Assembly (NCBI RefSeq): GCF_023516715.1
Contig: NZ_JAMGSI010000001.1
Location: forward strand, 620,001 to 684,000
Length of the DNA: 64,000 bases
Reading direction: 5' to 3'
From: Akkermansia massiliensis
GTDB taxonomy: Bacteria > Verrucomicrobiota > Verrucomicrobiia > Verrucomicrobiales > Akkermansiaceae
Both the position numbers and the translations under genes were made by a program. Under the pieces are notes generated by a model. The model was not told the origin of the DNA and did not search any database. It was given only the letters and a program-made list of their open reading frames with translations. Of this stretch, positions 29,670 through 52,454 are shown piece by piece. The stretch's first letter is position 1; every line of letters starts with the position of its first letter.

Positions 29670-29705
29670 TTATTTATCCATTTAAAACCATAACCTTATA
29701 CCTTA

Positions 29706-30503
29706 ATGATGATAAACCGCCCCTCTCTTTTTTCTCCCGGAATTTTCCGGCTGGCCTCCCTGGCTGTCTGCTCCCTGCTGCTGGCCTCCTGCGTCAATCC
29801 GAAAGAGGTTCTCTATATCCAGGACATTACGGGTGAGACCCGGCAGGATATAGTCACCAAATACCAGACGACTATTCAAAAAGACGATCAGCTTTATATT
29901 TCCGTCAGCAGCAAGCAGCCGGAACTGACTACCCCCTTCATCATGGCGGAAATGGGCAATTCCATCTCCAACAACACCGGCAATTCGCGGCCCAAAGGGT
30001 ACCTGGTGGACGACGAGGGATATATTGTCCTGCCGGTCATCGGGAAGATGAAGGCCGCCCGGAAGACGTGTTCCCAGCTTGCCCACGACATTTCCGCAAA
30101 GCTCCGCAACAGTGATTACATCAAGGATGCTTCCGTCAATGTCCAGATCATGAACTTCAAATTTTCCGTTCTGGGAGAGGTGAATAATCCCGGCTCCTAC
30201 CAGGTGGACGGTCAGCGCGTCACCATTTTTGACGCCATCAGCCGGGCGGGAGATTTGAATATCGACGGCAACCGGGACATCGTGCTGATCCGGGAAATGG
30301 AGCGTGACCGGAAGATCGTCAAGCTGGACCTGCGCAGCAAGTCCATTTTCTCCTCTCCTTATTACTATATCCGGCAGAATGATATTATTTATGTCACTCC
30401 GTCAGACCGCAAGATCAACATGAGGAGCGAAAGCGCCCAGTATTACGCCTGGGGCCTTTCGGGCCTGTCCCTGCTTATCGCCGTCATCGCCATCAGCCTG
30501 TAA
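29706..30503 (+). CDS. Polysaccharide export lipoprotein (Wza/SLBB family)
   Basis: 265 residues. Lipoprotein signal with lipobox L-L-A-S-C (C29). Poly_export domain from about 45 (Q-K-D-D-Q-L-Y-I-S-V-S) with G-Y-L-V-D-D-E-G-Y-I-V-L-P-V-I-G, then an SLBB domain (F-S-V-L-G-E-V-N-N-P-G-S-Y). A hydrophobic C-terminal helix (about 245-265, G-L-S-L-L-I-A-V-I-A-I-S-L) forms the outer-membrane helical barrel in Wza or an anchor in shorter homologues. It forms the exit channel for the polymer together with the downstream Wzc-like kinase. Confidence 0.93.
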   Translation: MMINRPSLFSPGIFRLASLAVCSLLLASCVNPKEVLYIQDITGETRQDIVTKYQTTIQKDDQLYISVSSKQPELTTPFIMAEMGNSISNNTGNSRPKGYLVDDEGYIVLPVIGKMKAARKTCSQLAHDISAKLRNSDYIKDASVNVQIMNFKFSVLGEVNNPGSYQVDGQRVTIFDAISRAGDLNIDGNRDIVLIREMERDRKIVKLDLRSKSIFSSPYYYIRQNDIIYVTPSDRKINMRSESAQYYAWGLSGLSLLIAVIAISL

Positions 30504-30527
30504 GACGCTTCATCCTGTTTTCCTTCC

Positions 30528-32864: not shown

Positions 32865-32956
32865 CGTCGTTGAACTGTCCTCTGCGTTGATCACTCCCTT
32901 TTCTTCAGCATTAGCCCCATAGCCTTTTTCCCGGTATTTTCTTCTTCCACCGTTTC

Positions 32957-34498
32957 ATGAACACCGTCTCCAGAGTGATAAGGAACACAGGATTCCTGTA
33001 TATGAAAATGGGCGTCACCATGTTCGTTTCCCTGTACGCGACGCGCCTGGTCCTGAATGCCCTGGGAGTGGACGACTTCGGCATTTTCAACATGGTGGCG
33101 GGCGTGATTGCCATGCTGGCTTTTCTCAACGCCAGCATGGCGGCGGCTACCCAGCGCTTCATGAGCTACGCGGAGGGGGAAGGGGACCCGGAGAAGCAGA
33201 AAATCGTGTTTAATATCAGCGTGGTGCTCCATCTTGCCATTGCCGTGATGGTCGGAATCCTGCTGTACGCTGCGGCCCCCATCCTGTTCGGGCATGTTCT
33301 CAATATTCCGGAGGACCGGGTTTTTGCCGCCAGGTGCGTTTACTGGGCCATGATCGCCAGCACCGTGTTCGGCATTCTGGGCGTTCCCTGTGAAGCCATG
33401 CTGAACGCCCATGAAAATATGCTGTATTTCGCCGTCATAGGCGTTCTGGAATCTTTCCTGAAGCTGGGGGCGGCCCTGCTTGTCGTTCATGTGCTGGCGG
33501 ACAAGCTGGTTCTGTACGGGGTGTTGATGGCCGGGATTTCCATCCTTGCCATGACGGCTATGCTTGTTTATTGCCGCAGGAACTATGCGGAGTGCGTGAT
33601 TGCGCCGCGGCGTTACTGGAAACGCGGCGTTTTCCGGGAAATGGGCAGCTTTGCGGGGTGGAATTTCACGGTTTCCGCCAGCAGCATGCTGTCGGAATAC
33701 GGCGTCGGCATCGTCCTGAACCACTTTTTCGGCGTTGCCCTCAATGCGGCGCAGGCCGTCGCCCAGCAGATCAACGGGCAAACCATGGCTTTTTCCGGGA
33801 CCATGCTGAAGGCCCTGAATCCGGTCATTTCAAAAAGCGAGGGGGCGGGCAACCGCGGCCTCATGCTGCGGGCCTCCCTGTCCGGCTGCAAATTCGCCTA
33901 CCTGCTCATGGCGGTTTTCGCCATTCCCCTGATTCTGGAGGCTCCGGGACTCCTGGGCCTCTGGCTTCATTCCGTCCCCGCCTGGGCGGTCCTGTTCTGC
34001 AGGCTCCAGCTTGCCAGAACCTTGCTGGAACAGCTTTTCCTCAGCCTGGGGTCCGCCATTTACGCGGAGGGGAACATCCGCCTGTACACGCTGGTGAAAA
34101 CGGGTTCCGGGATTCTTTTCCTGGGCGCTACCTGGGGATTCTATCGCATGGGATCGCCTCCCTGCATGATGTATGTGGCCGCCATTCTCTTCGTCACCGT
34201 GCCGGGGGGGCTGCTGGCCCTTTCCATCTGCGTACGGCGCCTTGGCCTCAGCCTGCGGGATTTTTCTTTCCAGGTGCTGGCGCCGTGCCTTGTCCCCAGC
34301 GCGGCTACGTTTGCCGCGGGCATCCTCCTGTCCCGGATTGATGCGTCGCTTTCTCCCGTTCCGGTATTGTTCCGCACCTGCTCGCTCCTGGTCGTCTTCC
34401 TCCTTTTCCTCTGGTTTTTTTCTCTGGACGGCAGGGAGCGCGGCACCCTTGTTTTTTTCCTGAAAAGCGCCTGGAGGAAAATTCAGTTTTCCAAATAA
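32957..34498 (+). CDS. Wzx-type lipid-linked oligosaccharide flippase (MATE-like)
   Basis: 513 residues with 12-14 predicted membrane helices. The N-terminus N-T-G-F-L-Y-M-K-M-G-V-T-M-F-V-S-L-Y and the L-N-A-L-G-V-D-D-F-G-I-F-N segment (in pieces) are typical of the polysaccharide biosynthesis/MVF superfamily. It flips undecaprenyl-linked repeat units to the outer leaflet for a Wzy polymerase, so this locus appears to follow the Wzx/Wzy route. A 90-bp gap separates it from the kinase gene; the next gene starts 4 bp after its stop. Confidence 0.9.
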   Translation: MNTVSRVIRNTGFLYMKMGVTMFVSLYATRLVLNALGVDDFGIFNMVAGVIAMLAFLNASMAAATQRFMSYAEGEGDPEKQKIVFNISVVLHLAIAVMVGILLYAAAPILFGHVLNIPEDRVFAARCVYWAMIASTVFGILGVPCEAMLNAHENMLYFAVIGVLESFLKLGAALLVVHVLADKLVLYGVLMAGISILAMTAMLVYCRRNYAECVIAPRRYWKRGVFREMGSFAGWNFTVSASSMLSEYGVGIVLNHFFGVALNAAQAVAQQINGQTMAFSGTMLKALNPVISKSEGAGNRGLMLRASLSGCKFAYLLMAVFAIPLILEAPGLLGLWLHSVPAWAVLFCRLQLARTLLEQLFLSLGSAIYAEGNIRLYTLVKTGSGILFLGATWGFYRMGSPPCMMYVAAILFVTVPGGLLALSICVRRLGLSLRDFSFQVLAPCLVPSAATFAAGILLSRIDASLSPVPVLFRTCSLLVVFLLFLWFFSLDGRERGTLVFFLKSAWRKIQFSK

Positions 34499-34502
34499 TT
34501 CC

Positions 34503-35363
34503 ATGAAATCCTATTCCATTCTCGTCAATACCTGTGATTCCTTTGAAGACTGCTGGGAGCCTTTTTTCAGGCTTTGGTCCCTCTATTGGCCCGATTGCCC
34601 CGCCCGCGTCTACCTGAATACGGAGTACAAGACCTATTCCGGTCCGGAAAAAAACGTCGTTTCCCTGAGGAGCTGCGCAGGCCGCACCATTCCGGGGCGC
34701 GGGAGGGCCACGTGGAGCGAATGCCTGAAATGGGCCCTGGAGGCCATGGAAACGGATACGGTGCTTTACATGCAGGAGGATTACTTCCTGACGGCGCCGG
34801 TGGACGGCGGGGCGGTGGAAAGGTATGCGGAGCAGATGCGCGCCCATCCGGAAATTCCCTGCATCCAGTTGACGCCGGAGGGAATTCCGGCCCGCGAGCC
34901 TTCGCGGTATGAAGGCCTTTTCACCAGTGACCCGGATTATCCCTGGTACGCGTGCTGCCAGGGCTCCCTGTGGCGCAGGGAGGCGCTGCTTTCCCTGTTG
35001 AGGAAGGAAGAATCCGCCTGGAAGTTCGAATGCTTCGGCAGCCGGAGGGCGAAGTATTCCCGCATGGAGTTTTTGACGGTGGACCCCTCCCTGTTTTCCC
35101 GGGAGGGGTACCAGATCATTCCCTACATTTTCACGGGCATCATCCACGGCAAATGGTACGGGCCGGTGGCGGAGCTGTTTGAACGGCACGGCATCTCCAT
35201 GGATTTTTCCAGGAGGGGTTTTTTTGATCCGGAGGAAAAGCCCCCTTGCTCCGCGAGAATCAGGAATGCCGCCAGGAACTGGAAGACGTGGCGCAGCCGG
35301 CTGGAGCTCCGGTCCATGAAGCGCCGCTTCCTTCGGGAGGAGAATGCCTGCGGAGGTAATTAA
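34503..35363 (+). CDS. Probable glycosyltransferase (GT-A-like, unassigned)
   Basis: 286 residues without a signal or clear membrane helix. It begins S-Y-S-I-L-V-N-T-C-D-S-F-E-D-C-W, a nucleotide-sugar-binding-like first strand. L-Y-M-Q-E-D-Y-F-L near residue 95 looks like the acidic metal site of GT-A enzymes (D-x-D replaced by Q-E-D-Y). C-C-Q-G-S-L-W-R-R-E follows as in many polysaccharide-locus transferases. It would add one sugar of the repeat unit on the cytoplasmic side. It overlaps the next gene by 20 bp. Assignment rests on motif resemblance and context. Confidence 0.6.
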   Translation: MKSYSILVNTCDSFEDCWEPFFRLWSLYWPDCPARVYLNTEYKTYSGPEKNVVSLRSCAGRTIPGRGRATWSECLKWALEAMETDTVLYMQEDYFLTAPVDGGAVERYAEQMRAHPEIPCIQLTPEGIPAREPSRYEGLFTSDPDYPWYACCQGSLWRREALLSLLRKEESAWKFECFGSRRAKYSRMEFLTVDPSLFSREGYQIIPYIFTGIIHGKWYGPVAELFERHGISMDFSRRGFFDPEEKPPCSARIRNAARNWKTWRSRLELRSMKRRFLREENACGGN

Positions 35364-36363
35364 ACTTGTCCATGCCATGATTTCACTGACGCACCAGGGT
35401 TTGCATTTGCTGCGCCGCATGTTTGACCGCTGTTCCGGCAGGGAGAAACTGAACCCCCCTTCCTGTGAACTGGACGCGGACGCGGCTTCCGCGATGATTG
35501 AGGACCTTCTCCGCTCCGGCCGTCCCGCCATGGTGGGGCGGTTTGGCTGCACGGAAATGTCCTGCCTGCATAATTATCTGGAAATTGGGAAGGCGGGCAG
35601 GAATCCGCTGGACTACATCACAGGCCGGAGGGACCAGTGGTGGTGGAATAAAAGCATCATGAGGCAGATGAGGGAGTGGTCCGGCTTTTTCCCGGCCGCG
35701 CCGGAGTATCTGGCCCGTTTCTGCGAGCTGATGCTCTGCGACATGAAGGAACTGGATATCCTGGGAAGCTGGCTTCCATATGAACGGGAGGTGATGCCCA
35801 TGATCCGGGACGTTCCCCGCGTGCGCCTGCTGAATCTGGAGCCTTACTGGTCTTCCCGGCCATGGAGCAGGGCCCTGGAGGGAAGGAAGGTGCTGGTGGT
35901 CCATCCTTTCGCGGAAAGCATCACGCTCCAATATGAACGGAACAGGGAAAGGATTTTTGAAAACCCGGAGGTCCTTCCTTCCTTTTCCCTGGAGACGCTG
36001 GCCGCCGTCCAGAGCCTGGGCGCGGGGCCGGACCGTTTTGCCGACTGGTTTGAAGCCCTGGCGTGGATGGAGGGGGAGATGGACCGCCGGGATTACGATG
36101 TCTGCCTCATCGGATGCGGGGCTTACGGCTTTCATCTGGCGGCCCATGCCAAGAGGAGGGGCAGGCAGGCCGTGCATCTCGGCGGGGCTCTTCAACTGCT
36201 GTTCGGCCTGCGGGGCAGGCGCTGGGAAGACCCGGCCTACGGGGCGGATCCCGGCGCTCCCAAATATGATTATTCCCGGCTTTTCAATGACGCGTGGGCT
36301 AGGCCGGGGAGAGAGGAGACGGTAGGCCACGCCAGCCGTGTGGAGGGGGGGTGCTACTGGTGA
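35344..36363 (+). CDS. Probable GT-D-fold glycosyltransferase (DUF1792-like)
   Basis: 339 residues from the ATG at 35344, overlapping the preceding gene; a start at 35377 is also possible. M-V-G-R-F-G-C-T-E-M (about 65) matches the 'R-Y/F-G-x-G-E' type motif of GT-D glycosyltransferases. The C-terminal I-G-C-G-A-Y-G-F-H-L-A-A-H-A-K and V-H-L-G-G-A-L-Q-L-L-F-G are the other landmarks of that group. Cytoplasmic. The family is small, with few characterised members, so donor and acceptor are unknown. Position inside the operon supports a role in building the repeat unit. Confidence 0.62.
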   Translation: MPAEVIKLVHAMISLTHQGLHLLRRMFDRCSGREKLNPPSCELDADAASAMIEDLLRSGRPAMVGRFGCTEMSCLHNYLEIGKAGRNPLDYITGRRDQWWWNKSIMRQMREWSGFFPAAPEYLARFCELMLCDMKELDILGSWLPYEREVMPMIRDVPRVRLLNLEPYWSSRPWSRALEGRKVLVVHPFAESITLQYERNRERIFENPEVLPSFSLETLAAVQSLGAGPDRFADWFEALAWMEGEMDRRDYDVCLIGCGAYGFHLAAHAKRRGRQAVHLGGALQLLFGLRGRRWEDPAYGADPGAPKYDYSRLFNDAWARPGREETVGHASRVEGGCYW

Positions 36364-36368
36364 AGAAC

Positions 36369-37700
36369 ATGAACCCTCCGGAAAAAAGGATGAACGTGCT
36401 CTGGCTGTCCAATATCCTGTTTCCCGAACCGTGCCGGATGCTTGGGCTTCCGGAACCGGTTCTGGGAGGCTGGATGTACGCGGGAGCGCAGGAGCTGATG
36501 AAAGCCGCCCCGGATTTAAAGCTGGCCGCCGTCATGTTTTATCCGGGGCGCACCCTGCGCCGCCTGGACGGGGAGGCCATGACCTATTACCTGGTTCCCG
36601 CCCCTGCGGACATGGGGGGGTACAGGAAGGAACTGGAACCCTGTTTCCGGGAAATCAGGGACATGTTCGGCCCGGACGTGGTCCATATCCACGGTTCCGA
36701 ATATCCGCACTCCCTGGCCTGGGTGCAGGCTTGCGGGGCGGAACGCACGGCCGTTTCCATCCAGGGGCTGTCTTCCGTCTGCGCCGGGTTCTATCTGGGC
36801 GGCATTCCTATCCGGGAACTCGTGAAATCCGTTACCTTCCGCGATCTGCTGCGCCGCGACACGCTTTTTGCCCAGCAGCGGAAAATCAAGGCGCGCGGAA
36901 AATACGAACGGGAGCTGTTCGGCAGGGTGCGCCATGTGATCGGGCGTACCGCCTGGGACCGTTCCCACGCATGGGCCATGAACCCCGCGGCACGGTACCA
37001 TGTTCTCCAGCCCACGCTCAGGGAACCCTTTTACCGTCATGAATGGGATGCCGGAACATGCGAAAAGCATACGGTTTTTCTCAGCCAGTCCCACTACCCC
37101 CTGAAAGGGCTGCACAAAGTGGTGGAGGCTCTTCCCCTGGTCCTGCGGCATTATCCTGACGCCAGGGTGAAGGTGGCCGGACCGGACATCCTGTCAGTCC
37201 CTGCGTGGCGCAGGAACGGCTACGCCCGTTATTTGGGAAACCTGATGGAACGGCTGGGAGTCCGGGACCGTTTTCGTTGGCTGGGACGCCTGGACGCGGA
37301 ACAGATGGGCAGCCAATTCCGGAAGGCGCATGTCTTCGTTTGCCCCTCCATGATTGAAAATGAGTCCAATTCACTGGGGGAAGCCCAGATGGTGGGCACT
37401 CCCTGCATCGCGTCCTATGCCGGGGGGATGATGGATTCCGTGTCCGACGGGGAAACGGGTTTCCTGTACCGGTTTGAAGAGACGGAAATGCTGGCCATGC
37501 TGGTGTGCCGCCTGTTCGGGGACATGGATTTGTGCAGGCGTCTTTCCTTCCGCGGAAGGCAGGCCTCTCTGGAGCGCCATGACCGTTCCGCGAATGCGGA
37601 ACAACTGAAGCGCATCTACGGCAGCATCGCCGGAGAGGCCGGGAACGGGACGGAGGAACATGAAGGAAAGGGAAGGGAGGGGGCCGCATGCAGCAATTGA
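36369..37700 (+). CDS. Glycosyltransferase, GT4 family
   Basis: 443 residues from the ATG at 36369 (6 bp after the previous stop); an ATG at 36390 is an alternative. GT-B fold: N-terminal N-V-L-W-L-S-N-I-L-F-P, and a C-terminal domain with the E-x7-E donor-site motif in P-S-M-I-E-N-E-S-N-S-L-G-E-A-Q-M-V-G-T-P. V-F-L-S-Q-S-H-Y-P-L-K-G-L is the start of the second Rossmann domain. A retaining transferase using a nucleotide sugar. It overlaps the acyltransferase gene by 13 bp. Confidence 0.88.
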   Translation: MNPPEKRMNVLWLSNILFPEPCRMLGLPEPVLGGWMYAGAQELMKAAPDLKLAAVMFYPGRTLRRLDGEAMTYYLVPAPADMGGYRKELEPCFREIRDMFGPDVVHIHGSEYPHSLAWVQACGAERTAVSIQGLSSVCAGFYLGGIPIRELVKSVTFRDLLRRDTLFAQQRKIKARGKYERELFGRVRHVIGRTAWDRSHAWAMNPAARYHVLQPTLREPFYRHEWDAGTCEKHTVFLSQSHYPLKGLHKVVEALPLVLRHYPDARVKVAGPDILSVPAWRRNGYARYLGNLMERLGVRDRFRWLGRLDAEQMGSQFRKAHVFVCPSMIENESNSLGEAQMVGTPCIASYAGGMMDSVSDGETGFLYRFEETEMLAMLVCRLFGDMDLCRRLSFRGRQASLERHDRSANAEQLKRIYGSIAGEAGNGTEEHEGKGREGAACSN

Positions 37701-38362
37701 TTTATCTTGCCAGGAAAGCCGTGCTCCGCTGCTGGGCCGTCTGCCTGCATCCCCTCCACAATTGGTATGCCAGGTGGCTCCTGTATGCCGGCAACGCGGT
37801 TTACGGCCCCGGCCTCTGTTCGTTCGGCATTCCGGACGTCAGGATATCCAGGGGAAGCCGCCGCCGATCCGTGCCGTGCCGCATAGGAAGGGAATTTACC
37901 ATGCGGAACGGCTCCCACGGCGTCTCCCGTTCCTCCCAGCGCTGCCTGATTTCCGTGGACCGGGACGGCGTGCTGCGCATCGGCAACCGGGTGGGCATCA
38001 GCAATACCGTGATTATCTGCACGCAGTCGGTGACGATCGGAGACGATGTAAAGGCCGGATTCGGAGTCCACATCATGGATACGGATTTCCACGCGTTGGA
38101 CCCGGAAGCCAGGCGGGGAGCGGAGGACAGGCTTCTGCGCCGGTCCGCTCCCGTCAGGATTGGGAACAACGTCTTCCTGGGTGCCGGAACCTTCATTTTG
38201 AAAGGCGTTTCCATCGGGGACAACGCCGTCGTGGGAGCACGTTCCGTGGTAACGCGTTCCATCCCTTCCAATGAGGTGTGGGCGGGAAATCCGGCGCGCC
38301 GCATCCGCCGGGCGGAGGAGGGGAAAGCTCCCCAGGTGATGGAAAGGAGCGCGCATGCGTAA
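37688..38362 (+). CDS. Hexapeptide-repeat (LbetaH) acyltransferase
   Basis: 224 residues. Left-handed beta-helix repeats ([LIV]-G-x4) run through I-G-N-R-V-G-I-S-N-T-V, I-G-D-D-V-K-A-G-F-G-V and I-G-N-N-V-F-L-G-A-G, with catalytic-type His in H-I-M-D-T-D-F-H and the family ending W-A-G-N-P-A-R. Likely O-acetylates (or otherwise acylates) a sugar of the repeat unit with acetyl-CoA in the cytoplasm. The N-terminal 60 residues are basic and unlike the usual family start. It overlaps both neighbours, by 13 and 8 bp. Confidence 0.88.
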   Translation: MQQLIYLARKAVLRCWAVCLHPLHNWYARWLLYAGNAVYGPGLCSFGIPDVRISRGSRRRSVPCRIGREFTMRNGSHGVSRSSQRCLISVDRDGVLRIGNRVGISNTVIICTQSVTIGDDVKAGFGVHIMDTDFHALDPEARRGAEDRLLRRSAPVRIGNNVFLGAGTFILKGVSIGDNAVVGARSVVTRSIPSNEVWAGNPARRIRRAEEGKAPQVMERSAHA

Positions 38363-39683
38363 TACGGCCCTTTCATGTCAGGCGAATGGAAGGCCGCCCC
38401 TTGATGGGAAATCCCGCCTTCCTTCAAGCATCCGGGTCGTGCTCCCCTTCATCATCCTGGTGAAGGCCATGATCATGCTGGCCATGTACTCGTCCGCCGC
38501 CGTCCTTCACCCGGTTTGTACGGAACAGGCCATTTCCCTTTCCTCCGCCCTCCTGCTGTCGGTGTCCTTCGTCATCATGCGGAAGTATTTCCGGAGGGAG
38601 GACGCCCCCGTTTATCCCCTCTTTTCCATTTATTTCCTGTGGGTATTCATTTGCTGCCTGCGGGGCGTCTTCGCCGTGGACGGCTACTGGTCCGCGCGGG
38701 CCCTGGTGACGAATGCCCCCACGCTTTTCATCCCCGTGCTGGTTTACGTGTTCAGCCTGCCGGAGGTGACGCGGCAGGTCCTGTCCGTCTGGTTCAAGGT
38801 GTTCATCCCCGTTTTTTTCCTGTTCATGTTCACCCTCAATCCGGACTTTTACGCCTCCCTGCTGAATCCCCTGCTGATGCTGGTGCCGTGGCTGCCCCTG
38901 CTGCCCCGGAAATGGAAGCTGGTGGTGCTGGTCATGGCATGCCTGATGGTGTGCGTCAGCATGGGAGCCAGGAGCCAGATTTTAAAGGCGCTGGTGGCTC
39001 TGTCCCTGCTGGCCGTCTATTGCGGCAGGGATTTGCTCAAGGACTGCTTTTACAGGATGATGCGGCACGCCCTGTTTTTAATTCCCTCCCTCTTTCTCGC
39101 CCTCGGGCTGGGCGGCGTCTTCAATGTCCTGGATGTCGGCTCCTACGCCGGAGCGCCGGGAAATTCCGTGGAGGACGACCTGCTGGCGGATTCCCGCAGC
39201 ATCGTCTTTGAAGAGGTGGCTTCTTCCTCCCTGAAGGACGGCTGCATTTTGCTGGGGCGCACCCCGGCGCAGGGGTATGAAACCAGTTTCCAGATGTCCA
39301 GTGATGAGCGCCAGTCCTACCATGACCAGAAGCGCCGCGCCTGGTGCGAACCCGTCCTCCTCAATATTTTCGCCTGGACGGGGGTGGTTGGGCTCTTCCT
39401 TTACACGGGATTTTACTGGCAGGCCTCCTATCTGGCCATTTACCGCTCCAACAACCGCTGGATGAAATTGCTGGGAGTGTTCGTGGCCTTCCGCTGGCTC
39501 TGGGGATGGCTGGAGGATACCAACTTCAATCTGGATATCATGAACATCTCCCTGTGGATGATGATCGCCATGTGCTATTCCAGCCGCTTCCGGGCCATGA
39601 CGGACGGCGAGCTTCACGAATGGGTGGAAAGCATCTTCCGCCGCCGTTCCTCCAACCCTCTCCCCTCCATACGCATTCCATGA
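38355..39683 (+). CDS. Wzy-like polysaccharide polymerase / O-antigen ligase-like membrane protein
   Basis: 442 residues with about ten predicted membrane helices and a large polar loop (about 265-325) before the final helices. This layout is typical of Wzy/WaaL proteins, and it is the only such protein in a locus that has a Wzx flippase, hence the call. Family sequence identity is always low, so the assignment is by topology and context. Its stop codon overlaps the next gene's start (ATGA at 39680). Confidence 0.7.
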   Translation: MRNTALSCQANGRPPLDGKSRLPSSIRVVLPFIILVKAMIMLAMYSSAAVLHPVCTEQAISLSSALLLSVSFVIMRKYFRREDAPVYPLFSIYFLWVFICCLRGVFAVDGYWSARALVTNAPTLFIPVLVYVFSLPEVTRQVLSVWFKVFIPVFFLFMFTLNPDFYASLLNPLLMLVPWLPLLPRKWKLVVLVMACLMVCVSMGARSQILKALVALSLLAVYCGRDLLKDCFYRMMRHALFLIPSLFLALGLGGVFNVLDVGSYAGAPGNSVEDDLLADSRSIVFEEVASSSLKDGCILLGRTPAQGYETSFQMSSDERQSYHDQKRRAWCEPVLLNIFAWTGVVGLFLYTGFYWQASYLAIYRSNNRWMKLLGVFVAFRWLWGWLEDTNFNLDIMNISLWMMIAMCYSSRFRAMTDGELHEWVESIFRRRSSNPLPSIRIP

Positions 39684-40528
39684 AAACTGATGATACCTCC
39701 GGAAAAAAACTTGCGGTCCTGATGACGTGCCACAACCGCAGGGAAAAAACGTTCCGCTCCCTTGCCGCCCTGTTCTCCGCACTGCCGGAAGCGGAGCTGG
39801 ACGCCTCCGTGCATTTGGTGGATGACGGTTCCTCCGACGGCACCGGAGACGCCGTGCGGCAGGCTTACCCCTCCGTTTCCGTCATCACGGGGGACGGAAC
39901 TCTGTTCTGGAACCGGGGAATGAGGACGGCATGGGAGGACGCCCTGAAGAAGGATGCGGATTTCTACCTGTGGCTGAATGATGATACCGTGCTTCATCCG
40001 TTTGCCGTAAGCCATCTATTGGAAGCCTCCCTCCGGATGGAACACGCCGCCGTCATCTGCGGCTCCACCTGCCATCCCGGCACGGATGAGTGGACTTATG
40101 GAGGCACGGCGGGCGGGAAGCCCGTTATTCCGGATGGAACCCTGAGGGAGTGCGAATTATGCCACGGGAACATTCTGTGGGTGCCGCGGCGGGTGGTGGA
40201 GCGCATAGGCATTCTGGACGGGTTCTACCTGCACGCGCTGGGGGATTACGACTATTCCCGTACGGCGCGCGAACGCGGAATAAAGCTGCGGGTGGCCCCC
40301 GCCTGCCTGGGAACCTGCGAACGGCATGACAAGGCCGTAGCCTGGACGGACCGGAAGGTGCCCCTGGCAGGCAGGCTCCGCAATTTGTATTCCCCGCTGG
40401 GGAATGCCCAGCCCAGGTATTACTTCCACTACGTCCGCAGGCACGACGGCCTGCTGGCCGCGTGCAAGGCCATGATCTGCATGCATGTACGAGTTTTTCT
40501 CCCCTTCTTATGGACAGCAACGAAATAG
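39680..40528 (+). CDS. Glycosyltransferase, GT2 family
   Basis: 282 residues from the ATG at 39680, which overlaps the previous stop codon. GT-A motifs: L-A-V-L-M-T-C-H-N-R at the start, V-D-D-G-S-S-D-G-T, and the metal site W-L-N-D-D-T-V (D-D at about 98-99). The rhamnosyltransferase-like G-D-Y-D-Y-S-R-T-A-R-E-R-G follows. Inverting transferase. It overlaps the following gene by 19 bp. Confidence 0.9.
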   Translation: MKTDDTSGKKLAVLMTCHNRREKTFRSLAALFSALPEAELDASVHLVDDGSSDGTGDAVRQAYPSVSVITGDGTLFWNRGMRTAWEDALKKDADFYLWLNDDTVLHPFAVSHLLEASLRMEHAAVICGSTCHPGTDEWTYGGTAGGKPVIPDGTLRECELCHGNILWVPRRVVERIGILDGFYLHALGDYDYSRTARERGIKLRVAPACLGTCERHDKAVAWTDRKVPLAGRLRNLYSPLGNAQPRYYFHYVRRHDGLLAACKAMICMHVRVFLPFLWTATK

Positions 40529-41370
40529 ACTGGGTGTTCCAGACGGATGACGAAGAGGTGCTGGAGACGTACAGGACCCGTGACAATTACCTCATGGAGC
40601 GCACTCCGGAGGGGGATGATTCGCGGTGCGCCGTTTATTTCAGCAGCAACGACCTGTACTTTCCCAACAACCGCGCCCGGTTCCATGAACGGGTCACCCT
40701 GCGGAATACGTTTGAATGGTTCGGAACCAGGGTTCCGGGCTGCGGAAGGCACATCTTCATCCGGGACGTTTTCAAGCAATGGTACCTGGGCGGCATCAAC
40801 AGCCGCCTGAATTCTCCGGAAAAGGTGCTGAAGTGGCTTGAAAACGAGACGAAAGGCTGCCGGGTAACGATGGTGGGCAGTTCCTCGGGAGGCTATGCCG
40901 CCGTTCTCTTCGGCTCCCTGCTGCATGCGGAACGCGTTTTCTCCTTCAACGGCTATTTTGACCTTGCGCCGGAAACGGAAATGGAAGACGCCGCCAGAAT
41001 CAATCCCCTGCTGGTACGGTACGGGAACGACCCGGAACGGGCGCCTTTTTACCGCCTGGCCCCTTTTCTGCATGCGGAGACCCCCGTTTATTATTTCCAC
41101 TCCCTGTTTTCTCCCATTGACCGCAGGCAAAGGGAGCTTCTGGGCGGCTGCCGGGGAGTGCACGTCATCCCCTTTCATTCCCGCCGCCACGGAATCCCCT
41201 TCCTCAAATGCTGTTTAAGCCGCCTTTTTCGGAGTACCGATGAGGAGCTGCTGGAGCTGTGCGGCTCAATTCAACGGCCCTTGCGGTTTTCCCTGCGGTA
41301 TGCGGGCGTCCGGAAGACGGTTTCCGGCTTCTTCAGGCAAGCGTGGCAATATTACAGGAAAAGGCACTGA
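40510..41370 (+). CDS. Alpha/beta-hydrolase-like protein of the polysaccharide locus
   Basis: 286 residues from the ATG at 40510. The nucleophile elbow is G-S-S-S-G-G-Y-A-A-V-L-F-G (Ser about 125-127), with a possible His in the H-G-I-P-F region (about 235). The same elbow (G-S-S-x-G-G-Y) is seen in Asp2-like and other hydrolases encoded with surface-glycan genes, where they remove or transfer acetyl groups. It has no signal peptide. The substrate could be a glycan intermediate; a true enzyme activity is inferred only. Confidence 0.55.
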   Translation: MDSNEIDWVFQTDDEEVLETYRTRDNYLMERTPEGDDSRCAVYFSSNDLYFPNNRARFHERVTLRNTFEWFGTRVPGCGRHIFIRDVFKQWYLGGINSRLNSPEKVLKWLENETKGCRVTMVGSSSGGYAAVLFGSLLHAERVFSFNGYFDLAPETEMEDAARINPLLVRYGNDPERAPFYRLAPFLHAETPVYYFHSLFSPIDRRQRELLGGCRGVHVIPFHSRRHGIPFLKCCLSRLFRSTDEELLELCGSIQRPLRFSLRYAGVRKTVSGFFRQAWQYYRKRH

Positions 41371-41373
41371 ATC

Positions 41374-42480
41374 ATGAACGGCAACAAACGGAAACTGATG
41401 GTCTTTCATCAATACCTGGCGCCTTACCGCATTGATTTTTTCAATGCGCTGGCCCGGATTGGAGAGATGGAGGTGTTTTTCGAATATGAAAATTCTCCGG
41501 ACCACCACTACAACAGGCCGGAAATGGAAGCCCGCTGCGCGTTCCGCCCCCAATACCTGAACCATGTCCGCGTGGCCGGGCGGCGCGTTCCCTCCGGCCT
41601 TGCGCGCATTCTGCGGCAGGGACAGCCCGATCTGGTGATCGTTCCGGAGTTTTCCATTCTGGCTCTGGAGGTATGCCTGCTGCGCGCGGTCTGCCGCTGG
41701 AAATTCAAAATCGTCAGCATTTGCGATGACAGCATGGACATGATCCGCGGAAATGAATTGTCCCGCATGCATGCGCTGGCGCGGAAGGCGGCGATGCCGG
41801 TGATGGACGATGTGATTCTCCCGGACAGGGAGGCATGCCGCTGGTACCGGGAACATTATGGAAAGGGCGTCTTTTTTCCGATTGTCAGGGATGAACGGGC
41901 ATTCCGGGAACAATGCCGGGAAGCGCTTTCCATGAGCCATTCCATGCAGCGGGAATACGGCCTGCACGGAAAACGGGTGGTCCTGTATGTGGGGCGCCTG
42001 GCCCCGGAGAAGAATCTGGAATGCCTGGTCAGGGCGGCCGCGGCCCTTCCGGAGGACGCCGTTCTGGTAATAGCGGGGTCGGGAAGCCTGGGACCGGAAT
42101 TGCAGGATTTGGCCGTCCGGCTGAAAGTCAGCGCCATTTTTACCGGCTGGCTGGAAGGCGAGCGCCTGGCGGCCTGGTACAATCTGGCCGACGTTTTTGT
42201 CCTGCCCAGCCTGGTGGAACCGTTTGGGGCGGTTGTCAATGATGCGCTGGCCGCCGGGTGCTTCTGCCTGGTTTCCGGGCGCTGCGGCTCCGCCTGCCTG
42301 ATCCGCCGGGGCTGGAACGGGGAATTGTTCGATCCGGAAGATGAAAAGGGGCTGGCCTCTCTTCTCCGGAAAACCTGCCTGGACCGCGGCGGCAGTCCGT
42401 CCCCTCCGCGCCTGAAAGAATGCCTGATGCCTGCGGGATTCCGGGAATACGTCAACCATCTCATGGAACATATTGTATGA
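41374..42480 (+). CDS. Glycosyltransferase, GT4 family
   Basis: 368 residues. GT-B fold: N-terminal [16 protein letters not shown], typical of GT4 enzymes of O-antigen loci. The C-terminal domain has [11 protein letters not shown] and the donor motif [18 protein letters not shown]. Retaining. It starts 3 bp after the previous gene and shares its ATGA with the next start, so translation is coupled on both sides. Confidence 0.9.
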
Positions 42481-43049
42481 TGAATGCTTCCGCCAATGCC
42501 GCCCCGGGCAGGTCCCGGCCCATCCTGTTTCTGCGTTCCCTGGCTAACGGAGTGCGCAGTTTCATACGGTTCCGCCTGCTTCAACGCTGGGTCACCGTGG
42601 AGGGAATGACCAGGATAGGAAGGCATGTGCATCTGAATTCCCCTCACAAACGGATCATTTTCGGGAACAGGGTGCAATTGGGGCCACACTGCCATGTCTC
42701 CTGCGATATACGCTTTGGAAACAGCGTGTTGTGCGCCGCCCGCGTTTCATTCATCGGAAAAAGGGACCATTCCTTTAACAGGCCCGGTTGCGCCATCTGG
42801 GATTCTCCCCGGAATTGGGAGGACGGCATGACGGTCATCGGCAGCGACGTGTGGATTGGGCACGGCGCCGTCATCCTGGGAGGCGTTTGCGTAGGGGACG
42901 GGGCCATTGTAGCGGCAGGCGCCGTCGTGACCGGAGACGTGCCGCCCATGACCGTGGTGGGCGGCAATCCTGCCCGGGTCATCCGCCGCCGCTTTGCCGC
43001 CCCGGAAGAGGAGGAAAGGCACCGGAACTACCTTAATTCCATCAAATAG
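42477..43049 (+). CDS. Hexapeptide-repeat (LbetaH) acyltransferase
   Basis: 190 residues from the ATG at 42477 (a second ATG follows at once at 42480). Left-handed beta-helix repeats: [34 protein letters not shown] and [14 protein letters not shown]; ends [10 protein letters not shown]. This is the usual sugar O-acetyltransferase form. It is the second acyltransferase of the locus, so two different positions of the repeat unit may be modified. Confidence 0.9.
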
Positions 43050-43056
43050 ACAAGCC

Positions 43057-44295
43057 ATGATGCAAATCCTGATTAACGCTTATGCCGTCAACCCGGACTG
43101 GGGCAGCGAACCCGGCATGGGGTGGAACTGGGTCATCCACCTGGCCATGCACTGCAAGGTGCATGTGATTACGGAGGGGGAATGGAGGGAAAACATAGAA
43201 CGGGAGCTCGCCCGCCTTCCCCAGGCCGGCAACATCGTGTTCCATTATCTTCCCGTACCGGAAAAAATTCGCCGGATGTGCTGGGACCAGGGGGACTGGC
43301 GTTTTTACCGCCATTACAAAAAATGGCAGGAACGGGCGCTTGCGCTGGCGCGGCGCATCATGGCGGAAAACCGCATAGACGTCATTCACCAGTTGAACAT
43401 GATAGGCTTCCGGGAGCCGGGGATGCTGTGGAAAATCGGGGGAATTCCCTACATATGGGGACCGGTGGGGGGAATGGAAAATACGCCGGTGGCCTACTTG
43501 CGGGAAAGCGGCTGGGGGCAGGTGGGGAAGACGGCATTGAAAAACGTGATCAATACCGTGCAGGCCAGGTTCCAGCCCAGGGTGCGGAAAGCCATGAAGC
43601 GCGCTGACGCCGTGCTGGCTTCCGTTCAGGGAGTGCGGGAGAAAATGGAACGGTACCATCGCCGGGAAGCGCTGCTGATGAGCGAAACCGGCTGCGCCGC
43701 GCCGAAGGAGAAAGTGCGGAGGGCAACGGACGGCGGACAATTCAGGCTGCTGTGGGCAGGCCGCATGATACCCAGCAAGCAGTTGGCCCTGGCATTACAA
43801 ACCCTCACCCATCTCCGGGATTTGCCGGAGCTGAAGCTGCATATCTGCGGGGGAGGGGAGAGGGGGCGGGGCTACCGGAACCTTGCGGAACGGCTGGGCG
43901 TGGCGGGGCAATGCGTGTGGCACGGCACAGTCTCCAATGAAAAGGTTCAATCACTCATGCGGGAAAGCGACCTCTTTTTCTTTACCAGCATCATGGAAGC
44001 AACCTCAACCGTGCTTGTGGAAGCCCTGATGAACCGCCTGCCCGTGCTCTGCTTTGATACCTGCGGCATGGGAACCATCGTGGATGAAACCGTGGGATGC
44101 AAGATACCCCTGACCCGTCCCGGACGGTCCGCCCGGGACTTTGCGGAACGCATCCGTTTCTTTTTCCATCACAGGGAGGTCCTGCGGGATATGGATGAAG
44201 CGTTTTACGCCAGGCAGAGGGAACTGGACTGGAACCGCAAGGCGGAAAGGATGGCCGGCATTTACCGCGAAGTTTTGAAGGCCCGTCAACATTGA
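43057..44295 (+). CDS. Glycosyltransferase, GT4 family
   Basis: 412 residues from the ATG at 43057; the ORF extends upstream, but only through the preceding gene. N-terminal N-A-Y-A-V-N-P-D-W-G-S-E-P-G-M-G-W-N-W is the signature of GT4 enzymes with a 'G-S-E-P-G' nucleotide loop. C-terminal domain: L-L-W-A-G-R-M-I-P-S-K and F-T-S-I-M-E-A-T-S-T-V-L-V-E-A-L. Retaining transferase adding a sugar to the growing lipid-linked unit. It is separated from the next start by 2 bp. Confidence 0.9.
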   Translation: MMQILINAYAVNPDWGSEPGMGWNWVIHLAMHCKVHVITEGEWRENIERELARLPQAGNIVFHYLPVPEKIRRMCWDQGDWRFYRHYKKWQERALALARRIMAENRIDVIHQLNMIGFREPGMLWKIGGIPYIWGPVGGMENTPVAYLRESGWGQVGKTALKNVINTVQARFQPRVRKAMKRADAVLASVQGVREKMERYHRREALLMSETGCAAPKEKVRRATDGGQFRLLWAGRMIPSKQLALALQTLTHLRDLPELKLHICGGGERGRGYRNLAERLGVAGQCVWHGTVSNEKVQSLMRESDLFFFTSIMEATSTVLVEALMNRLPVLCFDTCGMGTIVDETVGCKIPLTRPGRSARDFAERIRFFFHHREVLRDMDEAFYARQRELDWNRKAERMAGIYREVLKARQH

Positions 44296-44297
44296 CC

Positions 44298-45449
44298 ATG
44301 AGTGAAAACCGTATGGAGACCTATTTCAACATCAGATACGAATTTGACCGTGAACGCGTTTTCCGGCGCATGGACGAAGTGCTCCGTTCCGGGGGCGCCG
44401 GATACATCTGCGTGGCGGACGGCCATGTACTTTCCGAGGTACAGCGCAACCGGGAATACAGGAATGTGCTGAATGGAGCGCTCCTGACCATTTGCGACAG
44501 CGGCTGGGTGCCCGTCTACCTGAAATGGCTGCTGCATGCGGACAGGCCCCAATACTGCGGCGCCCAGATTTTCAGCGACGCCATCGGCATGAAAAAATAC
44601 AGAATGATGTTCCTGGGAGGAAACCGCGAGACGCTGGATGCCCTTCGCCGGACCCTGGAACGGGAAGATCCCCGCGTGAAGCACATGCCTTTTGAGGAAT
44701 TGCCGTTCTGCCCTGTGGATGAATTTGACTACGCGGCTATTGCCGGGAGAATCAATGAATACCTGCCGGACATCGTCTGGGTTTCCCTGGGCGCTCCCAA
44801 GCAGGAAATATTCATGAACAGGCTGTGCCCCCATCTTCAACGGGGGGTTATGGTGGCCGTGGGCGCCGTCTTTAACTTCGCCTCCGGGCGGCATATCAGA
44901 AGGGCCCCTGCCTGGATGGTGGACTGCAGGCTGGAATTTCTCTACCGCATTTTTAATGAACCCCGCAAGCAAATGAAACGCTGCTGGAAAATAATCTCTG
45001 TCCTGCCCTGGATTTTTATCCGTGAAAAACAACGGCAAAAGGCGGCCAGGCCGGCTGCCGCCTCCGGAAGGGAAAGAAAAGCGCCCCCTCTTCCCTGTAC
45101 GCTGGTTTCATGTTTCGGCCGGCTTCCCGGCAACATGGATGACCTGCTGGCTGACTGGGGCAGGGAAGAAGGCAGGAAATTCATCATTGTCAGCGACGAT
45201 GCGAGGTTCTGGAACCTGCCCTTCAACGCCAGCCTGGTGCCGATGGCTTTTTGCGAACTCCAGTCCCTGGTAAGGAAAAAACTGGGAAGACGGCATCAAA
45301 TTAACGTTCCGGAGGACCTCCCGCTGCTTCTGCCGCAATATCCGGTTCTCTTTGAGGACTATGTGGAAGGGAACCGGGAATTGGAAACAATAGCTCTGGA
45401 ATGGGAGGCCGGTTCCTCCCATGCACCGGTTCCCGCCGCTCCGGTTTAA
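44298..45449 (+). CDS. WecG/TagA/CpsF-family glycosyltransferase with an extra C-terminal domain
   Basis: 383 residues from the ATG at 44298. Residues 1 to about 250 are a standard WecG/TagA (GT26) domain: A-D-G-H-V-L-S-E-V-Q, T-I-C-D-S-G-W-V-P-V (usual D-G), M-F-L-G-G-N, V-S-L-G-A-P-K-Q-E and R-A-P-A-W-M. Residues about 270-383 are additional: a basic linker, then T-L-V-S-C-F-G-R-L-P-G-N-M-D-D and a second mixed alpha/beta stretch of about 100 residues with no family I recognise. GT26 enzymes usually transfer ManNAcA, ManNAc or glucose to the second position of a lipid-linked disaccharide. Confidence 0.86.
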   Translation: MSENRMETYFNIRYEFDRERVFRRMDEVLRSGGAGYICVADGHVLSEVQRNREYRNVLNGALLTICDSGWVPVYLKWLLHADRPQYCGAQIFSDAIGMKKYRMMFLGGNRETLDALRRTLEREDPRVKHMPFEELPFCPVDEFDYAAIAGRINEYLPDIVWVSLGAPKQEIFMNRLCPHLQRGVMVAVGAVFNFASGRHIRRAPAWMVDCRLEFLYRIFNEPRKQMKRCWKIISVLPWIFIREKQRQKAARPAAASGRERKAPPLPCTLVSCFGRLPGNMDDLLADWGREEGRKFIIVSDDARFWNLPFNASLVPMAFCELQSLVRKKLGRRHQINVPEDLPLLLPQYPVLFEDYVEGNRELETIALEWEAGSSHAPVPAAPV

Positions 45450-45499
45450 TGCTTACCCCTCTCCATACAGCAACATCCACACCTTAATACATTTCAACG

Positions 45500-46591
45500 A
45501 TGGCTACCAAAATATTCGTCTCCGGTTTTTACGACATCATTCATGCCGGGCATATCCAGTTCTTCCGTGAAGCGCGTTCGCTGGGGGATTTCCTCATCGT
45601 CTCCTTCGCCTCCGGGCAGGTGCTCTGGAAAAGCAAGCGCAGAAAACCATCCATCCCGGACGACCATAAAAAAGTGATTCTGGAAAGCCTGTGTATGGTG
45701 GACAAGGTGGTCTGCGGAGAACATCTGGAGCCGGGAATGGATTTTGAACACGTTTTCCTGAAAGAACGGCCCGATATCCTGGCTGTTACGGAAGATGACT
45801 GTTACGGCGACCTTAAAAGGGAACTGTGCGCAAGAATTGGAGCGCGGTATGTGGTGCTTCCCAAAACGCCTCCCTGTTCCGAACAGATTTCCACCACCCA
45901 GCTGGTGAACAGAATCAAGGCCCCGCTTAGCGTTCCCCTGCGCGTGGACTTTGCGGGGGGCTGGCTGGACGTTCCCAGGCATGCGCGGCAGGGGGCGTAC
46001 ATTGTCAACTGCGCCATCAGTCCGTTTGTATCCCTGGACCACTGGCCCTATGAACTCCGGTCCGGACTGGGAGGCAGCGGAGCCTGGGCCATGCTGCAGG
46101 GCCGGGACCCCGTCCAGTCGGAACTTGCCCTGGGGGTTGGCTGGCAGGATCCGGCCGTGATTGCGGAAACGGGGCTGTGCGTCTGGCGTTCCGGCGCCGT
46201 TCCCGTGCTGGACATCAAGAGCACCGGTGACTTTCTGGCCGGGAAAATGGCGGTCTTCCACACCGGGCATGACCATGATACGCCGGGAATGGCTGACGGG
46301 TGCAGGGACTATGCCCGCATCGCCCAGTCTTCCCTGATTGCCCGCGCCGGAGTGATGGAGCGCAGCATTCATGAACTGGCTGCCGGAGTGGCGCTGTACC
46401 ATAGCGTGCAGCTCCAGGAGGGGATGGCCCCCCTTCCAGCACTGGGGGAGGAGCTGGCGAAGAAATACCTGGGAGGCGGGTTCGGCGGATATGCCCTGTA
46501 CCTGTTCGCTTCCCAGGAGGACAGGGACGGGGCGGTGCGTCTTCATGACGGCATGAGGGCTGTGGAGCCGTATTGCAAAAGCCCCTTCTGA
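45500..46591 (+). CDS. Nucleotidyltransferase-GHMP kinase fusion protein
   Basis: 363 residues. Residues 1-138: a HIGH-superfamily nucleotidyltransferase with H15-A-G-H18 and the second motif I-S-T-T-Q-L-V-N-R, closest in look to RfaE2/TagD-type cytidylyl- or adenylyltransferases. Residues 140-363: a short GHMP-kinase-like domain, with P-L-R-V-D-F-A-G-G-W-L-D-V-P (motif 1), S-G-L-G-G-S-G-A-W-A (ATP loop, about 188-197) and G-G-G-F-G-G-Y-A-L-Y (motif 3, about 330). The kinase part is about 225 residues, versus about 300-330 in free enzymes, with only some 45 residues between motifs 1 and 2. It may phosphorylate and then activate a sugar or heptose to an NDP-sugar for the repeat unit. Confidence 0.75.
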   Translation: MATKIFVSGFYDIIHAGHIQFFREARSLGDFLIVSFASGQVLWKSKRRKPSIPDDHKKVILESLCMVDKVVCGEHLEPGMDFEHVFLKERPDILAVTEDDCYGDLKRELCARIGARYVVLPKTPPCSEQISTTQLVNRIKAPLSVPLRVDFAGGWLDVPRHARQGAYIVNCAISPFVSLDHWPYELRSGLGGSGAWAMLQGRDPVQSELALGVGWQDPAVIAETGLCVWRSGAVPVLDIKSTGDFLAGKMAVFHTGHDHDTPGMADGCRDYARIAQSSLIARAGVMERSIHELAAGVALYHSVQLQEGMAPLPALGEELAKKYLGGGFGGYALYLFASQEDRDGAVRLHDGMRAVEPYCKSPF

Positions 46592-46604
46592 TTCTTTTGC
46601 CGGA

Positions 46605-47747
46605 ATGAAAATGTCCATGGTTGAAGAATACTCTCCGGACACGGAGCCGGAAAAGGCGCAGGCTACCCGTCCGGGGGCCGTTCCCGGGACGCCGCCGAGG
46701 GAATGCTGGCTTGACCTGGGCAGGGTGGTTGGCCTGTTCTTCATCGTCCTTTTTCATGCTGGGGGAAGCGGAGCGGAATTCCCTCTCTTCTTCCAGCGGG
46801 TGCCTTTTCTGTTCATGGCGGCGGCCTACTTTGTGGGACGCAGGAAAATGTTCGACTGGCGTCATTCCCCGTGCAGGTACGTTTTATTTTATCTGGCATG
46901 GAACGGCGCGGCTTTTCTGGAAGCGTTCTTCAGGCATTGGATTTATTTAAGCCTGGGCCATTCAAGCACGTGGGACTGGAGCAGCCTGCCCTGGAAACTG
47001 ACGGGAGTGGGAACCACCTTCCCCTACGACGGCCCCCTGTGGTTCCTGAAATACGTGATGGCGCTGAGCCTGCTCTCTTCGCTTTTATTTGCCCTGGGAA
47101 AAAGGAAGCTGCTGATTCCCGCGACGATAGCCGTTCTCTTCTCCGTAGTGCTGTTTCCGGAGATCAACGCGCTGTTTTCCGACCCTCCCCGGGTTCCGTG
47201 GGCGGACTCCCTGGCTTTTTTCATGCTGGGGTTCTGCCTTTCCTCCCTGACGCTGGGCGAGATTAAGCTGTTCCTGAAAAAAATAAGTTACTTTTCCCTT
47301 CCCGCGTGGGCGGCAATAGCGTGGATGAACCATGGCGGCGTCATCTCCACGGAAACCCTGCACACCATCCCCTGCTGGATTCCGGGGATTCTGGGACTGG
47401 GCTCCCTGTGCGTTCTGCTGGCGGAAAAGACGTTCTTTCGTAAAATCGCTCAGGCATGCGCTCCCCTCTTTTTCTTCATTTATGCCGTCCATTGCCTGAT
47501 CCTTCCCTGGTTGATGCCGCTCCTCTCGAGAATCCTTCCTGAAGAACTTCCTTCTCCCATGATTGCGGCGGTCCTGGTATTTGCGGGAGCATTCTTTCTT
47601 CATCGGCAGGTGGTCCGGCATTACCCCGGCTGGGAATACCTGATCTTTGCCCAAAAGCGGAGAAAGCCGGTGACTGACGGGCAGGAAAAGGAGATAGTTG
47701 CCGCCGCCTTTTCCCGGTCCGCTTCCATCAATGAGCCCCCTCTTTAG
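46605..47747 (+). CDS. Membrane acyltransferase (acyltransferase 3 family)
   Basis: 380 residues with about ten membrane helices. It begins (after a 33-residue polar head) with W-L-D-L-G-R-V-V-G-L-F-F-I-V-L-F-H-A-G, in which the R and H are the conserved catalytic-site residues of the acyltransferase 3 (OafA-like) family; F-L-F-M-A-A-A-Y follows. These proteins O-acetylate glycans at the outer face of the inner membrane. Last gene of the polysaccharide locus. A short GC-rich hairpin followed by a T tract at about 47,738-47,766 may end transcription. Confidence 0.85.
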   Translation: MKMSMVEEYSPDTEPEKAQATRPGAVPGTPPRECWLDLGRVVGLFFIVLFHAGGSGAEFPLFFQRVPFLFMAAAYFVGRRKMFDWRHSPCRYVLFYLAWNGAAFLEAFFRHWIYLSLGHSSTWDWSSLPWKLTGVGTTFPYDGPLWFLKYVMALSLLSSLLFALGKRKLLIPATIAVLFSVVLFPEINALFSDPPRVPWADSLAFFMLGFCLSSLTLGEIKLFLKKISYFSLPAWAAIAWMNHGGVISTETLHTIPCWIPGILGLGSLCVLLAEKTFFRKIAQACAPLFFFIYAVHCLILPWLMPLLSRILPEELPSPMIAAVLVFAGAFFLHRQVVRHYPGWEYLIFAQKRRKPVTDGQEKEIVAAAFSRSASINEPPL

Positions 47748-52142: not shown

Positions 52143-52209
52143 TACCATGATTGCAGATAGATAGTTACAGCTACAGTTTCCATGTCTCGGAGAGTGGGAC
52201 AAGTTCACG

Positions 52210-52368: not shown

Positions 52369-52454
52369 TTTACAGTGTACTACTGTTTGTACTGAAGTTT
52401 TGGATAAATAAAAATCGCAAGTACTGTATTTCAAGCACTTGCGATTAAAATAAA

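Follow-up and report, generated by a model that had tools for sequence, protein, structure and literature searches.

A nucleotidyltransferase fused to a compact GHMP kinase in an exopolysaccharide locus of Akkermansia massiliensis, a putative bifunctional sugar-activating enzyme

Sugar 1-kinases and nucleotidyltransferases are joined on one chain in two described enzymes, HldE and FKP. In HldE (RfaE), an RfaE2-type nucleotidyltransferase is joined to a sugar kinase, which is of the PfkB type and N-terminal. FKP, the L-fucokinase/GDP-fucose pyrophosphorylase of Bacteroides fragilis, is a protein of ~950 aa that combines a nucleotidyltransferase with a C-terminal GHMP kinase; its pyrophosphorylase half is of a different domain kind and carries a beta-helix. 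Other similar proteins stand alone, including the heptose 7-phosphate kinases HddA/WcbL, which have the GHMP fold, and the nucleotidyltransferases TagD and HldC, which have the HxGH motif. The protein described here is a third pairing of this kind, and this third fusion type carries an unusually trimmed kinase. If the function proposed below is true, the fusion would define a sugar donor for the surface glycans of Akkermansia and its relatives. The Akkermansia capsule has been reported to affect association with mucus (PMC13343947).

The window, meaning the whole stretch of 64,000 nucleotides that was analysed (contig NZ_JAMGSI010000001.1, positions 620,001 to 684,000), encodes a 363-aa protein with the kinase placed C-terminally, as in FKP. 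It consists of an HxGH nucleotidylyltransferase with the RfaE2/HldC/TagD fold, a short linker and a GHMP kinase domain of ~220 aa. The corresponding features, in window positions, are as follows.

45500..46591, + strand: gene of the 363-aa nucleotidyltransferase-GHMP kinase fusion, stop included (ORF, relatives, AlphaFold model)
45500..45925, + strand: nucleotidylyltransferase domain, residues 1-142 (Pfam CTP_transf_like at 8-136, fold matches)
45542..45553, + strand: HAGH motif, residues 15-18 (H15 and H18 in 118/118 unique sequences)
45887..45898, + strand: ISTT motif, residues 130-133 (from the sequence)
45926..46588, + strand: compact GHMP kinase domain, residues 143-363 (VIA-align fold matches)
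45935..45976, + strand: GHMP motif 1, PLRVDFAGGWLDVP, residues 146-159, with R148, W155 and D157 (from the sequence)
46064..46090, + strand: GHMP motif 2 phosphate loop GLGGSGAWA, residues 189-197 (S193 in 118/118)
46121..46123, + strand: E208, a possible metal-site glutamate (inferred by analogy with FKP E751)
46139..46150, + strand: GWQD, residues 214-217, with Q216 and the proposed catalytic base D217 (motif match to FKP Q761 and D762)
46472..46489, + strand: GHMP motif 3 GGGFGG, residues 325-330 (G325, G327, G329 and G330 in 118/118)

The fusion is real, as judged from the ORF and the modelled folds of both halves. The AlphaFold2 model, built with 37 related sequences, reached a mean pLDDT of 88.7 and a pTM of 0.63, with the relative placing of the two domains unsure. 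A chance or shadow ORF was ruled out, since the protein is conserved across hundreds of loci; a 416-aa ORF on the opposite strand (45494-46744) was itself taken as a shadow. An earlier note on this DNA had described HIGH-type nucleotidyltransferase motifs in the N-terminal half and three GHMP kinase motifs in a short C-terminal half, and all of these are present, the latter within residues 143-363. Its reading of the combination as neither HldE nor FKP also holds, with no PfkB match and no GFPP-type pyrophosphorylase domain. Structure prediction, which it had proposed as a check, gave a model that matches both folds (VIA-align Z ~18 and ~20). The note had further named, as grounds for refuting its reading, a full-length family already in print whose substrate is known; the open-licence PMC literature, the available text of PMC12732313 included, showed neither such a family nor any description of a nucleotidyltransferase-GHMP kinase fusion.

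Among GTDB species genomes, 275 relatives of the fusion were found; the best 80 of these are nearly all from Verrucomicrobiota, are 58-98% identical and all match residues 6-357 or more. In a survey of the phylum, 45 of 288 genomes had a match at E <= 1e-100 (a count of printed rows), and a strong match was present in 22/22 genomes drawn from the genus Akkermansia, including the genome under study. The relatives form three groups that have diverged to ~25% identity and share the same layout: group A, to which the window protein belongs, group B, with proteins of ~380 aa mostly from outside the class Verrucomicrobiia, and group C, with proteins of ~445 aa from two genomes. Conservation and spacing were determined for 118 unique sequences (group A 83, counting the window protein; group B 33; group C 2), after leaving out 12 of 130 loci in which the start-motif regex missed the protein (8 group A, 4 group B) and merging one identical sequence. 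Two loci carry labels from outside the phylum, L083 (Planctomycetota) and L054 (Proteobacteria), and the latter may be misbinned, since its neighbour clusters match Spartobacteria loci. Plasmid searches returned no record covering 80% of the fusion query.

The N-terminal half is recognized by Pfam CTP_transf_like (PF01467) over residues 8-136 (E 3.2e-10, 40.8 bits, cut-off 21), which differs from the pyrophosphorylase domain of FKP. The closest NCBIfam profile is RfaE2 (TIGR02199), whose score of 54 bits is far below the cut-off of 181.5 and sets this half apart from the RfaE2 domain of HldE; the TagD profile (TIGR01518) likewise scores 44.1 bits, below its cut-off of 165.4. The match of the HldE model is limited to residues 5-140, and neither Pfam nor NCBIfam detected a PfkB kinase domain in the fusion protein. 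In VIA-align comparisons, the best match was 3glv (Z 18.1, rmsd 1.6, 119 residues), covering residues 1-124. TagD and HldC followed at Z 17-18, the HldC structure 5xf2 giving Z 16.8 and rmsd 3.1 over 134 residues. TagD and HldC share the fold and the HxGH motif with this half and differ from it in being stand-alone proteins, whereas here the domain is fused to a kinase. Within the ISTT motif, position 131 is S in 82/83 group A proteins and R in 33/33 of group B.

The kinase half is recognized weakly by profiles, and clearly through the longer relative L122 and through structure. No GHMP Pfam match was reported for the window protein, its C-terminal half being without any Pfam model, or for the group A relative L134, and three group B proteins scored 14.2, 17.9 and 19.5 bits, all below the cut-off of 21. 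In L122, the longest relative (group C), the GHMP C-terminal Pfam domain exceeded the cut-off with 37.5 bits. The NCBIfam FKP profile touches residues 145-173 of the fusion weakly (E 0.057). A profile built from 28 relatives gave weak matches to PDB entries, namely mevalonate kinase 2hfs (E 0.00014, profile positions 262-345), FKP (E 0.0088 to 0.031, positions 141-171), WcbL (0.048), 3k85 (0.061, positions 243-344) and 4n3o (0.48). For the L122 kinase the relationship is clear, with E values of 2e-20 to 1e-16 to WcbL, 3k85 and 4n3o and of 4e-10 to FKP. Furthermore, residues 139-360 of the model align by VIA-align with galactokinase 1s4e (Z 20.3, rmsd 2.6, 210 residues), the FKP kinase 9iip (Z 19.3, rmsd 3.3, 219 residues) and WcbL 4usk (Z 19.3, rmsd 2.9, 220 of 345 residues). 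The model of a group B protein (pLDDT 88.4) matches WcbL with Z 22.1 (rmsd 3.1, 238 residues) and the FKP kinase with Z 20.4.

The most distinctive feature of the kinase half is the distance between the motif 1 Arg and the motif 2 Ser. The compact gap that the earlier note had pointed out proved to be exact and general: R148 and S193 are 45 residues apart, as are their counterparts in 83/83 group A proteins, the window protein included, and the distance is 41 residues in 33/33 group B proteins and 51 in 2/2 of group C. In 17 stand-alone kinases of the phylum, by comparison, it is 94-100 residues; 20 such controls were fetched, of which 3 were missed by the regex, and they were classed as HddA-like from their motif and their resemblance to the L122 kinase rather than from a family-model scan. 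The distance is 106 residues in WcbL (R13 to S119; PMC4691232) and 127 in FKP (R592 to S719; PMC11982464). These counts indicate that a stretch of ~50-60 residues between motifs 1 and 2 is lost in all measured members. Recent decay of one kinase was ruled out, the short spacing being constant within each of the three groups. From the Ser to the catalytic Asp there are 24 residues in group A, 42-45 in groups B and C and 44-45 in the 17 controls. This points to a second shortening (motif 2 to D217), which is likely younger than the first because it is confined to group A, the first being common to all measured members.

Human galactokinase has two of its four ATP loops, as well as the adenine-stacking Trp, between motifs 1 and 2: loops L1 (79-85) and L2 (98-105) precede the motif 2 loop L3 (133-140), as do Val129 and Trp106, which stacks on an adenine mimic (PMC8056384). 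The galactokinase of the genome under study has 98 residues from the motif 1 Arg to the first Ser, and a Trp 62 residues after that Arg. This Trp, matched by motif, is presumably the counterpart of human Trp106. With 45 residues in all between the two motifs, a Trp at 62 after the Arg cannot be present in the window protein. The loops on the adenine side of the ATP site, expected between the two motifs, thus appear to be missing, as judged by spacing rather than from a ligand-bound structure. The GHMP ATP pocket named in the earlier note is therefore borne out in part: the phosphate-binding loop is present in the model, and the stretch with the adenine-side loops, again by spacing, is not. With the ATP-holding stretch lost and the catalytic residues kept, the phosphate donor becomes a direct biochemical question.

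Conservation of the remaining residues is strict, H15, H18, R148, W155, D157, S193, Q216 and D217 being invariant in 118/118 unique sequences. An acidic residue lies near the metal position as E208 in 83/83 group A proteins, and in group B it is E (24/33) or D (9/33) ahead of N...GSQD. By alignment and motif match, R148, W155, D157, Q216 and D217 are counterparts of FKP R592, W599, D601, Q761 and D762. In FKP, R592 and D762 serve transfer, W599, D601, Q761 and D762 hold fucose, T602 contacts the C3-OH, and the W599A and D601A variants lower kcat/Km for fucose by more than 3000-fold (PMC11982464). Five of these six FKP side chains are matched by residues that are invariant in the family (118/118). 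The sixth site, T602, differs, with V, Q or I in 117/118 sequences and T in one, and is not kept in the window protein. In a second FKP, D767A retains ~40% activity, so that the matching Asp is not essential (PMC12732313); for this reason, the role of catalytic base is only proposed for D217. Residues R13, D22, S119, Q162 and D163 of WcbL all have counterparts in the window protein as well. The two differ in that HddA/WcbL kinases are stand-alone, with a G at the motif 1 W site, and the window protein is fused, with GGWLD in motif 1 versus GGGTD in HddA/WcbL. The same site is G in 17/17 measured stand-alone kinases of the phylum and W in 118/118 fusions. Because the W, as in FKP, replaces the G of the stand-alone kinases, the sugar pocket predicted from these alignments is fucokinase-like rather than HddA-like, with the T602 contact kept in only 1/118.

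The surroundings of the fusion gene, which the earlier note had taken for a polysaccharide locus, correspond by Pfam matches to an exopolysaccharide locus, with a fucosidase gene beyond its end.

29007..47747, + strand: exopolysaccharide locus holding the fusion gene (Pfam matches)
44292..45449, + strand: WecG/TagA/CpsF glycosyltransferase just upstream of the fusion (PF03808, E 4.9e-34)
46605..47747, + strand: acyltransferase 3 gene just downstream of the fusion (PF01757, E 2e-15)
48189-50153: alpha-L-fucosidase that also has F5/8 domains, 0.4 kb beyond the end of the exopolysaccharide locus (PF01120)

The locus encodes a sugar transferase, Wza-, Wzc- and Wzx-like proteins, glycosyltransferases, the WecG-type glycosyltransferase and the acyltransferase; 3 of the 14 neighbouring ORFs scanned had no Pfam match. 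At 44298-45446, the WecG-type glycosyltransferase also carries a C-terminal DUF6625 stretch (residues 271-358). In L005 and L007, which are close strains, a gene similar to the fucosidase follows the fusion at ~2 kb. The link of the fucosidase to the fusion was judged weak, as GH29 was found in only 4/130 loci, two of them from close strains.

Across the family, a WecG-type glycosyltransferase gene occurs within 1.5 kb on the same strand in 43/91 group A and 1/37 group B loci. For GMD, the counts by the same measure are 35/91 in group A, 3/37 in group B and 0/2 in group C, and 26/72 among group A loci having 2 kb on both sides. Group A and group B loci show this link in different gene orders, and the group A cases represent few independent events, since most of them come from operons that are related to each other. 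A GMD from each of the two contexts was scanned, and each exceeded the curated cut-off; that of the Verrucomicrobiales operons scored 581 bits (cut-off 415), and its FCL fell slightly under, with 458 bits (cut-off 500). A frequent order in Verrucomicrobiales is fcl, gmd, fusion gene, wecG, UDP-glucose dehydrogenase (UGDH), cysC, cysD and cysN, the names UGDH, CysC, CysD and CysN, like MurJ below, having been assigned by eye from the sequence rather than by profile. The run from wecG to cysN adjoins the fusion, for example, from L035:10855 onward. UGDH was counted as a neighbour in 13/91 loci at a 50% identity threshold and in 38/80 in an earlier count; the lower figure probably reflects the threshold. 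The sulfate activation genes inside such a polysaccharide operon may point to sulfated surface glycans.

Additionally, a heptose operon around the fusion was looked for without success. HldE and GmhB (at 30% identity and half coverage) and GmhA were each found in 0/130 loci, with a HAD-type ORF named by eye as the GmhB-like query and with many loci ending at contig ends, so that the fusion family differs from HddA/WcbL in having no heptose genes detected nearby. The genome under study has an HldE-like gene adjoining GmhA, separate from the fusion; its RfaE2 score of 164.5 bits is under the cut-off of 181.5, and its N-terminal half was judged by eye. The genome also has homologues of GMD (64% identity) and FCL (50-54% identity), as compared with the L141 genes. 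The Akkermansia copies of the fusion are not beside gmd or fcl.

Taken with the pocket residues, these data suggest that the fusion is probably a bifunctional enzyme, with a fucokinase-like sugar 1-kinase and a nucleotidyltransferase that together make an NDP-sugar for a surface polysaccharide. We infer the activity of both halves and the order of the two steps. The C-terminal GHMP domain would bind a free, probably fucose-like sugar (L-fucose, D-arabinose or similar) and phosphorylate it at C1, with R148, W155, D157, Q216 and D217 in the roles of their FKP counterparts. The N-terminal HxGH domain would then couple the sugar 1-phosphate to a nucleotide, giving the NDP-sugar and pyrophosphate, and the NDP-sugar would feed the glycosyltransferases of the surface polysaccharide. 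For the donor, three possibilities present themselves: ATP bound chiefly through its phosphates, ATP in a pocket that is completed from elsewhere in the protein, or a non-nucleotide compound.

From the pocket and the neighbours, we consider it possible rather than probable that the activated sugar is L-fucose or a close analogue. Against fucose stand the loci without GMD within 1.5 kb (56/91 in group A, 34/37 in group B and 2/2 in group C), and the closer likeness to the heptokinase WcbL than to FKP of the group C kinase by sequence and of the group B model by fold. Akkermansia lipooligosaccharide has been reported to contain fucose (PMC13135019). That salvage to GDP-fucose is the sole source of fucose was ruled out, because a genome with its own GMD and FCL has no need of salvage for GDP-fucose. 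De novo synthesis of GDP-fucose is probably within reach of this genome, so the product of the fusion may contain another nucleotide or another sugar.

Three other readings were weighed against this proposal. The kinase may instead phosphorylate heptose or heptose 7-phosphate at C1, as HddA/WcbL do, with the nucleotidyltransferase forming ADP-, GDP- or CDP-heptose that GMD/FCL-like enzymes may modify; heptose-type GMD and FCL homologues are known in other bacteria. This would agree with RfaE2 as the closest nucleotidyltransferase profile, even if at 54 bits against a cut-off of 181.5, with the sequence of the longest relative's kinase, nearest to WcbL and 3k85, and with the group B model, nearest to WcbL by fold. 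However, the invariant motif 1 W, where the measured stand-alone kinases have G, the 0/130 loci with GmhA, GmhB or HldE, and the separate HldE-like gene beside GmhA make a heptose activator unlikely. The loss between motifs 1 and 2 bears on the other two readings. As the stretch of ATP loops L1 and L2 and the adenine-stacking Trp is absent, by spacing, in 118/118 sequences, the GHMP half may no longer be a kinase at all, serving as a sugar-binding or regulatory domain or transferring another group, with only the nucleotidyltransferase half catalytic. GHMP folds with other chemistry exist, and ForT, with PRPP, is among the fold matches. On the other side, the three groups retain the phosphate-loop Ser, the motif 1 Arg and the proposed base without exception, which at a divergence to ~25% identity is not as expected of a dead domain, and we regard its loss of kinase function as quite improbable.

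The remaining reading takes the GHMP half to be a kinase whose ATP site has lost its adenine half and which uses a non-nucleotide donor, in its boldest form the pyrophosphate released by its own nucleotidyltransferase half. Free sugar and NTP would then give NDP-sugar and Pi in a closed loop, at one NTP per sugar. Such a donor would be consistent with an ATP site that keeps its phosphate side and lacks its adenine side throughout the family (118/118) and in none of the stand-alone kinases (0/17), and with the pyrophosphate that the nucleotidyltransferase half would make beside the kinase half; in the model, helix 132-140 and strand 145-152 are four residues apart. Nevertheless, binding of ATP through its phosphates would be feasible, as would completion of the pocket by another subunit. 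A single literature search showed no such donor for GHMP kinases, and we know of no GHMP kinase that uses one; we give this reading very little weight beside the proposed fucokinase-like enzyme.

The history of the family was examined in domain trees. Group A contributed 22 rows, of which 4 were chosen and the rest either drawn randomly or taken in from L145-L147; group B contributed 18 random rows and group C 2. The fusions group together in both trees, with branch values of 96/81 for the nucleotidyltransferase and 99/98 for the kinase, and one stand-alone kinase, L212, falls beside them in the kinase tree. A single origin of groups A, B and C is likely from these trees and not proven, because they carry long branches. 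The fusion set of the nucleotidyltransferase tree also contains six stand-alone rows inside the B clade, which correspond to three distinct genes of genus members adjoining their group A fusion. These encode a nucleotidyltransferase of ~140 aa directly after the fusion (L134:1651-2082, likewise in L135 and L136), which may be a B-type fusion minus its kinase.

The genome under study also encodes a 73% identical paralogue of the fusion (G000:C1:479028-480107; L207:9023-10129, minus strand), which is likely a housekeeping copy. It lies directly before a MurJ-like gene, an order repeated in the Akkermansia loci L008-L013. In L025:10001-11078, a relative of the fusion has a broken reading frame, with a stop in the matched span. 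Elsewhere in the window, a tmRNA gene (52455-52814, tag AESNDLALAA) adjoins a tRNA-Arg; a second tmRNA called by ARAGORN, at 52042-52551, overlaps this gene and is doubtful.
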